DNA of 60,582 bases from Candidatus Gastranaerophilales bacterium (GTDB lineage: Bacteria > Cyanobacteriota > Vampirovibrionia > Gastranaerophilales > Gastranaerophilaceae): the NCBI GenBank assembly GCA_944324225.1, contig CALUVL010000014.1, forward strand, positions 1-60,582, read 5' to 3'. This document shows positions 1 through 60,582 of this stretch, one piece after another. The notes under the pieces are model-generated. The model searched no databases. It was not told the origin of the DNA and saw only the letters and a program-made list of their open reading frames with translations. How positions within the stretch are numbered: position 1 is the first letter of the stretch; each line of letters begins with the position of its first letter. A program made the position numbers and the translations under genes.

Positions 1-17
1 AAGGAGCAGTAAAAAAT

Positions 18-71
18 ATGAAAACAGTTGATATGATTGAATTTCAGGGGGGGGGGGGCACCTGCAAATAA
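18..71 (+). CDS. 17-aa leader ORF crossing a G12 tract, upstream of prepilin
   Basis: An ATG at 18 has the best ribosome binding site here (AAGGAG at 1-6, 11 nt upstream). It opens a short frame, MKTVDMIEFQGGGGTCK, ending at TAA (69-71). The frame runs through twelve consecutive G (47-58) followed by CACC. Immediately after the stop lies GCTCCTT (73-79), an exact reverse complement of AAGGAGC (1-7), so the transcript could fold to hide the ribosome binding site. The prepilin frame downstream is +1 relative to this leader, so removing one G or adding two would fuse them. The same arrangement, also with a 17-codon leader, occurs at 60325. Whether this is a separate leader peptide or the slipped 5' end of the pilin gene cannot be decided from one sequence. 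Confidence 0.4.
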   Translation: MKTVDMIEFQGGGGTCK

Positions 72-1215
72 CGCTCCTTCAAGTACTTTAGCCCTAAGTG
101 TTTTAGAAGATTCATCCAAGAATGGTTTAGCAGCAATTCCATGTCATCCTGAGCCGTCAGGTGCAGGATCTAAAACAAGAGTAAAGAGATTCTTCGGACT
201 CCGTCCTCAGAATGACGTTGAATGTCAAACACGGCAGGTAGCCCTCGTCGTCCCATGTCATCCTGAGGCTTTAGCCGAAGGATCAAAAGCAAGAGTAAAA
301 AGATTCTTCGGACTATGTCCTCAGAATGACGAACAAGATTTACTCTGTCATCTTGAGCGAAGCGAAAGATCTAGCGACAATTCCAAAGGATTCTTCAGTC
401 GTAAACTCCATCAGAATGACAAGAAGGGAAAGCAAGCCGCCTTCACAATGGCTGAAGTGCTGATAACATTAGGCCTAATCGGAATAGTCGCTGCAATGAC
501 AATCCCGCAGTTAATAAAGAACTATCAGATAAAGGTATTGCAGACAGAATTTAAGAAGGCTTATGCGGATTTGAATACGGCAAGCAAGATGTTTCAGGTT
601 CGTAATGGTACAACCGTAAGCGATTACGCAGCAAATGCCGGTTCAATGGCAGCATTAAATCTGTTCAAAAAAGAGTTTAATGCTGTGCTTAAAACAAATG
701 ACAACGTAGATGGTACTAGAGATGAAGAAGGTAATTGGATTGGTGCAAAACCATATAAGGGTAAAGACGGCAAATGGTATGGCTGGGGGATTATTGGTAA
801 TAGAAATATTGATTTAGGCTCTGGATGTGACGTAACCCAGTTCTTTTTTGACGGAATAGGTCGACCAATATCTTTTGATGACAAGCCTGCGAGCGGCAAA
901 AACGGTCCGAAGGTTTGTATCGATATCAACGGAGAAAAAAGTCCAAATATCTATGGCGTAGATTTTTTTGTATTTTTATTCACAACAGATGGTTATGTAA
1001 TCCCATGGGGGCAAACACATAAGGATAACCAGTATGATGGCGGCAGTACGGCAAATAATTCAATTCCAAATGAGGATATGTCGCAATACTGCAATAATAA
1101 GTCAAAAGATGATAGTAGAAGTGCTTATTATTCCTGCGCAATATATGCCTTATCCAATACCCATCCGACGGATAGTCATAAAGACTACTGGCATGATTTT
1201 ATAAACGGAAGGTAA
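37..1215 (+). CDS. Type IV prepilin-like / pseudopilin protein with long repeat-containing N-terminus
   Basis: The mature part starts near position 442, where AA is followed by FTMAEVLITLGLIG: a prepilin peptidase site with Glu at position 5 of the mature chain and a hydrophobic helix. A long polar C-terminal domain with several Cys follows, as in secreted pseudopilins of this lineage. The roughly 135 residues before the cleavage site are not pilin-like: they translate a G tract (GGGAP) and three copies of a palindromic repeat (RFFGLRPQND-type). The only in-frame starts are TTG at 37, which has no ribosome binding site, or entry by frame slip from the ATG at 18. Either the G tract is phase-variable or its length is an assembly error. 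The pilin domain is clear; the true N-terminus is not. Confidence 0.75.
   Translation: MNFRGGGAPANNAPSSTLALSVLEDSSKNGLAAIPCHPEPSGAGSKTRVKRFFGLRPQNDVECQTRQVALVVPCHPEALAEGSKARVKRFFGLCPQNDEQDLLCHLERSERSSDNSKGFFSRKLHQNDKKGKQAAFTMAEVLITLGLIGIVAAMTIPQLIKNYQIKVLQTEFKKAYADLNTASKMFQVRNGTTVSDYAANAGSMAALNLFKKEFNAVLKTNDNVDGTRDEEGNWIGAKPYKGKDGKWYGWGIIGNRNIDLGSGCDVTQFFFDGIGRPISFDDKPASGKNGPKVCIDINGEKSPNIYGVDFFVFLFTTDGYVIPWGQTHKDNQYDGGSTANNSIPNEDMSQYCNNKSKDDSRSAYYSCAIYALSNTHPTDSHKDYWHDFINGR
142..420 (+). repeat. Three copies of a 75-bp palindromic repeat (RFFGLRPQND type)
   Basis: Copies lie at 142-216, 256-330 and 346-420, each exactly 75 bp. Each begins with TGTCATCCTGAG or TGTCATCTTGAG and ends with TCAGAATGAC, so the ends are inverted repeats. 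The lengths preserve the reading frame of the prepilin ORF. The third copy is the most diverged. Related fragments occur at 8814 and 24986. Such repeats are common between genes in gut-type genomes; here they sit inside an open frame, just before the pilin signal. Confidence 0.85.
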
Positions 1216-59747: not shown

Positions 59748-60065
59748 TCAGTGTGTAATAAGTTTTAAGCCTGCTATCCCGCTGACAATAAGCAAAATGC
59801 ACAAAATTTTCATAACAGTTACTGGCTCTTTGAAGAGTATAATTCCAAAAATTACTGTTCCGATAGTTCCGATACCTGTCCATATTGCATAAGCCGTTCC
59901 TAACGGCAGATTTTTAAGAGCAAGTGCGAGAAAATAAAAACTGGCAATCATCCCGACAATAGTAAGTATCGACGGAATAATCTGAGTGAATCCATGTGAA
60001 AATTTTAACCCTACAGCCCAGCTTATTTCAAAAAGTCCCGCAATAAATAAAAACATCCAGTGCAT
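59748..60065 (-). CDS. sugE: SMR-family guanidinium exporter (SugE/Gdx type)
   Basis: A four-helix transporter of 105 aa. The sequence MHWMFLFIAGLFEISWAVGLK carries the essential membrane Glu (E13) of small multidrug resistance proteins, and GTAYAIWTGIGTIGTVIFGI is the SugE/Gdx type. Control by an adjacent guanidine-I riboswitch indicates export of guanidinium. AAAGGAG precedes the ATG at 60065; the long upstream ORF extension is riboswitch sequence, not coding. Confidence 0.93.
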   Translation of the reverse strand: MHWMFLFIAGLFEISWAVGLKFSHGFTQIIPSILTIVGMIASFYFLALALKNLPLGTAYAIWTGIGTIGTVIFGIILFKEPVTVMKILCILLIVSGIAGLKLITH

Positions 60066-60089: not shown

Positions 60090-60122
60090 AAAAAAGCCTG
60101 GGGAAAATAATATCTCCCAGGT
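60090..60122 (-). terminator. Riboswitch-linked terminator
   Basis: On the - strand, CCTGGGAGA pairs with the CCCAGG side to form a hairpin followed by CTTTTTT. Its 5' strand is also the 3' end of the guanidine-I aptamer, so ligand binding and termination are mutually exclusive, as expected for an ON switch. Confidence 0.8.
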
Positions 60123-60200
60123 TTTTATCCTTCCGTGTACACAAAAAATGTGAATTTTCTCTCGGACCAGCAGGCTTACACCCCGGAACCCTAGAAAATT
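60113..60200 (-). promoter_or_regulatory. Guanidine-I (ykkC) riboswitch
   Basis: The - strand contains the conserved blocks in order: CTAGGGTTCCG (60184-60194), CTGGTCCGAGAGAAA (about 60156-60170) and ACACGGAAGGATAAAA followed by CCTGGGAGA (60113-60138). These are the ykkC class I consensus blocks. It lies directly upstream of the SMR gene with a terminator stem between. Confidence 0.92.
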
Positions 60201-60255
60201 TTCTATTCTATTTGATTTTAAAATATATAAAAGATAAAAATTATTCAAGCCCCCC

Positions 60256-60284: not shown

Positions 60285-60324
60285 AGAGAATTAAGTAAAA
60301 AAGCGAGCGAAGGAGCAAAGAGGT

Positions 60325-60378
60325 ATGAAACACAGACAGGACAAGGCTTTACGGGGCGGGGGGGCACCCAAAAAATAA
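60325..60378 (+). CDS. 17-aa leader ORF crossing a G tract, second copy
   Basis: ATG 60325 follows AAGGAGC (60310-60316). The product MKHRQDKALRGGGAPKK ends at TAA (60376-60378), directly followed by GCTCCT (60379-60384), which is complementary to AGGAGC. The frame crosses GGGGC plus seven G (60353-60364) and the shared GCACC word. Both this and the leader at 18 have 17 codons, a G tract, GCACC, ten bases, then GCTCCT. The prepilin frame is +1 relative to it. Confidence 0.4.
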   Translation: MKHRQDKALRGGGAPKK

Positions 60379-60388
60379 GCTCCTGAGA

Positions 60389-60582
60389 GTGAAAACAGGA
60401 CAAACAACCTGTTTAGATAGGGCATTGAGCCACCCATCAGGCATCGGACGATTATTAAGCGGCTTCAGTATGATGGAGATATTAATCAGCTACGTAATAA
60501 TCGGGGTATTAGCGTTAATATTACTTCCAATACTTCAAAGTGCAAAGCCGGATAAGAACGAGGCATTGCATAAAAAGAGCAC
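60389..60582 (+). CDS. Prepilin-like protein, 5' part (runs off window)
   Basis: The frame from GTG 60389 is open to the window end. It contains the prepilin signal SGFSMMEILISYVIIGVLALILLPIL: cleavage after Gly (60461-60463), Glu at position 5 of the mature chain, and a hydrophobic helix. It could start at GTG 60389, which lacks a good ribosome binding site, or be an extension of the leader at 60325 after loss of one G (or gain of two). The C-terminus is outside the window. It differs in type from the pilin at the left end (FTMAEV). Confidence 0.6.
   Translation, partial: MKTGQTTCLDRALSHPSGIGRLLSGFSMMEILISYVIIGVLALILLPILQSAKPDKNEALHKKS

Follow-up and report, generated by a model that had tools for sequence, protein, structure and literature searches.

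A recurrent G-tract leader module at type IV prepilin genes of Candidatus Gastranaerophilales: candidate contingency loci in gut bacteria

How is a prepilin made from a gene whose start codon stands in a different reading frame? The question is raised by the right end of the stretch of DNA analysed here (60,582 nucleotides, called the window below), which corresponds to C14, one of the 28 contigs of a 1.93-Mb genome of Candidatus Gastranaerophilales. The group consists of gut bacteria related to cyanobacteria, and the relatives of this genome in the collection bear the names Candidatus Gastranaerophilales or Melainabacteria. A module of about 65 bp, of which one copy lies at 60310-60384, is composed of AAGGAGC, an ATG, a short leader, a G-rich tract, CACC, a stop codon and GCTCCT, and is followed by a prepilin frame that opens 40 nt after the A of the ATG, that is, at an offset of +1 (Table 1).

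Table 1. Features of the two window ends (window positions, strand, and basis of the assignment).
Feature	Position	Strand	Basis
Left module copy: AAGGAGC, ATG at 18-20, pure G12 at 47-58, CACC, TAA, GCTCCT	1-78	+	
Left prepilin frame, FTMAEVLITLG, open from the tract to beyond the stretch read; 392-codon open frame	61-1200	+	
AAGGAGC: Shine-Dalgarno sequence of the leader and left inverted-repeat arm (partner GCTCCT)	60310-60316	+	sequence; RNA fold
Leader reading frame: ATG at 60325, 17 codons, TAA at 60376-60378	60325-60378	+	sequence
G tract GGGGCGGGGGGG, 12 positions with a single C interruption	60353-60364	+	sequence; relatives have pure G11/G12 there
Conserved 3' part of the module, CACC-N10-GCTCCT	60365-60384	+	motif counts, locus alignment
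Right-end prepilin frame, LLSG/FSMMEILI..., off the ATG frame by one nucleotide, cut by the contig end	60365-60582	+	
Pilin body, 121/123 identical to a gene without a tract at the C25 contig end	60460-60582	+	identity begins at the prepilin cleavage site

The layout given in the preliminary description, namely AAGGAGC, a 17-codon leader, GCACC, ten bases, GCTCCT and a prepilin at +1, is present in full, with GCACC at 60364-60368 and GCTCCT at 60379-60384, immediately 3' of the TAA. The G run, however, is not pure but interrupted by a C. The prepilin itself reads LLSG followed by FSMMEILISYVIIGVLALILLP and scores 15-16 bits against N_methyl, below the Pfam cut-off of 21.2, but clear relatives exist. 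The prepilin at the left end of the window, FTMAEVLITLGLIGIVAAMTIP, differs from the one at the right end, while the 5' layout is equal. Over the tract loci as a whole, the characteristics of type IV prepilins are found: the class III signal G/F-x4-E, a hydrophobic N-terminal helix and matches to N_methyl.

The left prepilin has a long leader of more than 120 residues, made up mostly of in-frame dispersed repeats (CHPE...FFGL.PQND, window 140-430), and similar repeats occur in many prepilins of the genome G013. In the neighbourhood of the right-end module, and divergent from it, there is a guanidine-I riboswitch (76 bits, 60112-60205, minus strand). The gene directly downstream of the riboswitch, which ends at 59748 on the minus strand, resembles an exporter of the small multidrug-resistance type. 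An Rfam scan of the window gave this riboswitch and one tRNA, and no other match.

We now turn to the question of whether the two copies belong to a larger set. Within the window, GGGGCACC-N10-GCTCCT occurs twice at up to 2 mismatches, compared with 0.07 expected from shuffles. Genome-wide there are 8 exact GCACC-N10-GCTCCT sites; two of these lack a G tract and are stray, and the other six have one and lie, six out of six, at prepilins. When every G tract of at least 7 is listed, the genome has about 16 long tracts at prepilin starts, the interrupted tract of the window included. Fourteen are located just upstream of prepilin motifs, one of them, on C16, with an unlike leader, and two are truncated at the ends of contigs C1 and C8, where the leader is that of the left copy in the window. 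The proposal that unrelated pilin genes share a 5' module is thus confirmed: further copies exist, and they are concentrated at prepilins rather than being equally common elsewhere.

One and the same leader module stands at the end of C1, the end of C8 and the start of C14 (L094, L108 and L113). The C16 locus (L116, G000:C16 18142) is a prepilin with G13 whose leader is of another kind; it lacks the GCTCCT module, and a Shine-Dalgarno start is not obvious.

The module behaves as a unit within genomes. If the loci of a genome are aligned on the tract, the segment that begins with the Shine-Dalgarno sequence and ends with GCTCCT is highly similar, and beyond it similarity drops to background level in both directions. 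Leader identity is 0.76 within genomes vs 0.59 between them, a difference of 0.17, for which the maximum of 1000 label permutations is 0.03. Promoters (0.49 within, 0.47 between) and pilin bodies (0.66 and 0.62) show hardly any such difference. Some leaders that are 97-98% identical are surrounded by unrelated promoters and bodies, some identical pilin bodies have unrelated promoters upstream, and the same leader DNA can be read in different frames, as for ATTATTGAATTTC before f0 and f2 prepilins. A further case is provided by the gene at the end of C25, which has a plain in-frame leader, MKKFWDYLSDKGKKKSNVAG/FSMMEILI, without a tract, and a body 98% identical to that of the right-end pilin. 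C14 and C25 end at the same base of this shared body, and the assembly therefore probably broke at the pilin-body repeat. More generally, it was probably at members of the module/pilin repeat family that the assembly broke at either end of the window. The mosaics of leaders and bodies, together with the C25 copy, indicate that leaders and bodies recombine, and leader swapping among pilin genes is thus supported by these comparisons. The earlier suggestion of a recombination module is borne out in part, namely in that leaders are homogenised within genomes and that the pilin body of the window occurs twice with different leaders.

The module has a narrow taxonomic range. A scan of about 85,000 species genomes for the exact motif with G8 matched 39 stretches, 38 of which are from Gastranaerophilales, Melainabacteria or assemblies labelled "uncultured bacterium" that have the same prepilin loci. 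The remaining one (L128, Gemmatimonadota) has G8 and no prepilin, and was rejected as a chance match, as was the single match in a scan of viral contigs, which is off any prepilin locus. Within the order, a stricter version of the module is found in 14 of 383 genomes, all from 2 of the 52 genera, and a looser pattern occurs in 13/14 and 11/13 genomes of these two genera. The only loose match outside them looks like chance as well.

For the frame analysis, tract loci were taken from about 20 genomes, with the start codon chosen by its Shine-Dalgarno sequence and blind to frame, and the count covers the 163 loci in which a start was found and a prepilin frame lies downstream of it. The offset from start to prepilin, modulo 3, is +1 in 128 loci, 0 in 24 and the third frame in 11, where all tract lengths are those of the assembled consensus and the counts are inflated by shared ancestry and leader copying. 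An offset of +1 corresponds to a surplus of one G, or a shortage of two, relative to the in-frame length. The tract length compensates for the phase of the flanks: those that need 11 G's mostly have G12 (83 loci), those that need 12 have G13 (22) or G12 (12), and those that need 10 mostly have G11 (21). Grouping the leaders by similarity gives 49 clusters, of which 36 are mainly +1, 8 in the third frame, 4 in frame and 1 a tie. Interrupted tracts are also mostly +1: six of them lie at this offset, most with long open prepilin frames. At one locus (L129, positions 1-110), the G12 is preceded by a long low-complexity C-rich stretch at the contig start, probably an assembly artefact.

In 126 of the 163 loci the prepilin frame contains a stop between the ATG and the tract, so that the prepilin cannot start upstream there. 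From the tract to the pilin motif the frame is open, over up to 235 codons, and it follows from the two observations that translation must pass into this frame at the tract or close to it. The unshifted leader frame, on the other hand, meets a stop at most 12 nt after the tract in 143/163 loci, compared with 20/163 for the other frame. While the G tract is constant, the codon after it and the codon before the stop are both variable.

The preliminary description overlooked that the G run is probably subject to slippage, and that gain or loss of G joins the leader and pilin frames. At these loci, the length of a homopolymeric tract in the coding region sets the frame. Between some close relatives it also varies more readily than the flanks do, several other pairs having equal lengths. 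Three pairs of near-identical loci from different species differ by a single G, namely G13/G12 with 1 substitution in 175 nt, G12/G13 with 4 substitutions and G11/G12 with 6. In other near-identical pairs the tract length is equal, or an edge G is substituted with the total length unchanged. Among the relatives of the right-end gene, 4 are in frame (one of them, L155, is too short past the tract to show the pilin motif) and 3, the window included, are at +1. The single-G differences imply that frames do toggle, and this toggling among relatives is what phase variation predicts.

On the basis of these sequence comparisons we lean towards the view that the prepilin loci constitute a family of phase-variable poly-G contingency loci, in which gain or loss of a single G probably switches each pilin on or off. 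In the proposed mechanism, each prepilin gene would be headed by a strong ribosome-binding site, an ATG, a few codons and 10-13 G's, and the prepilin frame would be usable from the tract onward only. At the usual number of G's, the ribosome would terminate at the stop just after the tract (OFF), while the loss of one G or the gain of two would fuse the leader to the prepilin (ON). The tract length would be altered by slipped-strand replication and, given 10-30 of these genes in each genome, a single population would comprise cells with differing sets of pilins, a variation that may itself be beneficial. Intragenomic recombination or duplication would have carried the module from one pilin gene to another and would keep the leaders alike within a genome. 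The preference for +1 would represent a poised OFF state, with the commonest slippage event, the loss of one G, turning the gene ON, and this is the weakest step of the proposal. Namely, plain phase variation is expected to make both OFF frames equally common, and the observed excess (128 vs 11) counts against it. The prevalence of +1 at interrupted tracts does so too, since such tracts should slip little, as do several relatives in which the tract edge is substituted yet the total length is kept. The excess of +1 over the third frame, about 12 to 1, is therefore not fully explained but only in part.

A further set of tracts is relevant here. Four DNA methyltransferase genes contain long G tracts (G12, G10, G9 and G10, in frames 2, 0, 2 and 1), and these were sought across the genus as a larger control but were present only in the window's own genome. 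They are located at G000:C8 23284, 24611, 25269 and 31314 (L103-L106), and three of the genes are close paralogues. Judged by their tracts, they are probable phase-variable methylases.

Another option is that +1 is the working state, either with the ribosome slipping by +1 on the G run or with RNA polymerase omitting one G, such that a fixed fraction of the products would be full prepilins and the remainder would end at the nearby stop. The strong bias, repeated over flank phases and leader clusters, the stop retained close to the tract in the unshifted frame, the mutated tract edges with conserved total length and the persistence of +1 at most interrupted tracts all speak for such recoding. 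However, 15% of the loci are in frame at the DNA level and orthologues toggle; 36 of the 49 clusters are mainly +1, yet 24 loci are in frame. The variable codons after the tract and before the stop leave no fixed ribosomal shift site, a run of 4-7 G's would be enough for ribosomal slippage, and the tRNA-Gly genes found look normal. An extended-anticodon tRNA-Gly for GGGG was also considered and rejected, with only TCC, CCC and GCC tRNA-Gly among the 30 tRNA loci scanned (10 hits being unscanned). In programmed +1 frameshifting of the prfB type, a short first frame has an early stop, the downstream frame is at +1, and SD-like purines lie upstream. The prepilin loci share all of these characteristics but have no conserved codon before the stop (CCG TAA, GAA TAG, AAA TAA and others occur) and do have in-frame orthologues; a prfB-like shift at the stop codon was rejected, the preceding codon being unconserved and often unable to re-pair. 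As to the polymerase, the deletions that E. coli makes during transcription avoid G as well as homopolymers (PMC5574713), which counts against an omitted G. We consider recoding somewhat unlikely, and the specific version in which +1 is the expressed state, and two related genera decode a prepilin family by a one-nucleotide shift on G12 with a module spread by recombination, unlikely. It could also be argued that each real tract has one G fewer and every gene is simply in frame, the +1 being an artefact of sequencing or assembly. G tracts are indeed hard to size, and for Bifidobacterium breve only a minority of the population itself had the length given in the reference, the authors warning that reference G-tract lengths can be wrong (PMC9187656). 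However, the error would have to be a constant +1 in a large number of independent assemblies and at G11, G12 and G13 alike, and orthologue pairs one G apart are found. Moreover, the methyltransferase tracts of the same assembly scatter over all three frames, which means that an extra G is not simply inserted at every tract of the assembly, although the control is small. An artefact is thus very unlikely.

Two other explanations focus on the inverted repeat. The leader peptide and a hairpin between AAGGAGC and GCTCCT might act as a translational attenuator that regulates initiation, with reinitiation at the prepilin. In the window, RNA folding is predicted to pair AAGGAGC at 60310-60316 with GCTCCT at 60379-60384. 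Of the 111 loci with both a Shine-Dalgarno sequence and CTCCT, 91 have the two paired in the predicted fold, with an advantage of about 4 kcal/mol over shuffled 3' ends. The arms are nearly invariant across loci, so that they hold no covariation information. Folding of the whole module at the two window copies is, however, just 1.4-1.7 sd better than shuffles. Furthermore, reinitiation has no need of a prepilin frame that extends without a stop, over as many as 235 codons, from the tract to the pilin motif, and no start codon is conserved past the tract; an attenuator is in our view very improbable. The same repeat could instead delimit a mobile or recombining mini-module, AAGGAGC...GCTCCT, that serves mainly to swap pilin 5' ends. 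This fits the inverted-repeat ends, the leaders that are alike within genomes where promoters and bodies are not, the identical bodies that follow unrelated promoters and the C25 gene, in which the leader is exchanged at the cleavage site. However, ordinary gene conversion or duplication gives homogenisation as well, and the frame pattern is left unexplained, which makes this a highly improbable account of the loci. The same holds for its variants, in which the module would be a small element or a target of gene conversion promoted by the G tract, similar to the Neisseria pilE G-quadruplex.

The favoured reading, phase variation by tract slippage, has counterparts in other bacteria. In the poly-G/poly-C contingency loci of Neisseria and Campylobacter (e.g. 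pilC), a tract in the start of a surface gene sets the frame ON or OFF. A homopolymeric G tract within the gene start is likewise present in the prepilin loci; those contingency loci are, however, mostly single dispersed genes with unlike flanks, whereas the prepilin loci are flanked by one shared module and stand consistently at +1. In pilE/pilS antigenic variation in Neisseria, a G-quadruplex-forming G-rich element lies beside the pilin genes and pilin sequences recombine between loci. Both the adjoining G-rich element and the inter-locus recombination have parallels here, with the difference that the Gastranaerophilales tract is inside the coding leader and that the recombination is deduced from a few sequence mosaics. 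The closest measured case is that of the sortase-dependent pilus genes bbr_0113 and bbr_1889 of B. breve, which have intragenic G10-G12 tracts near the 5' end, with a reference state that is out of frame and a productive change of -1+3n (PMC9187656). The variation, by replication slippage, was measured there: omission (6.5%) far exceeds addition (0.1%) at the G10 locus, G12 is the commonest length at the G11 locus, and ON lengths were enriched in mice (PMC9187656). The two systems have in common a 5' intragenic G tract in a pilin gene of a gut commensal, an out-of-frame reference state and a productive loss of one G. They differ in that B. breve has two loci and Gram-positive sortase pili, whereas Gastranaerophilales have 10-30 type IV prepilin loci per genome and one homogenised leader module. 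The module was called undescribed in the preliminary description, which is only partly right, given that pilus genes of Bifidobacterium are known to undergo poly-G phase variation; for Gastranaerophilales and Melainabacteria, the literature searched contained no report of poly-G or phase-variable pilins.

Finally, some consequences should be mentioned. Genes of this kind will usually be called broken, or given a wrong start, by annotation pipelines. The constant surplus of one G over many leaders and species poses a testable question, namely whether slippage bias and selection maintain it as a poised OFF state or whether the shift is programmed. That the leaders are homogenised suggests that regulatory switches can be passed on among the genes of one genome. 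If the phase-variation reading is true, these uncultured gut bacteria would possess an unusually large set of phase-variable pilins.
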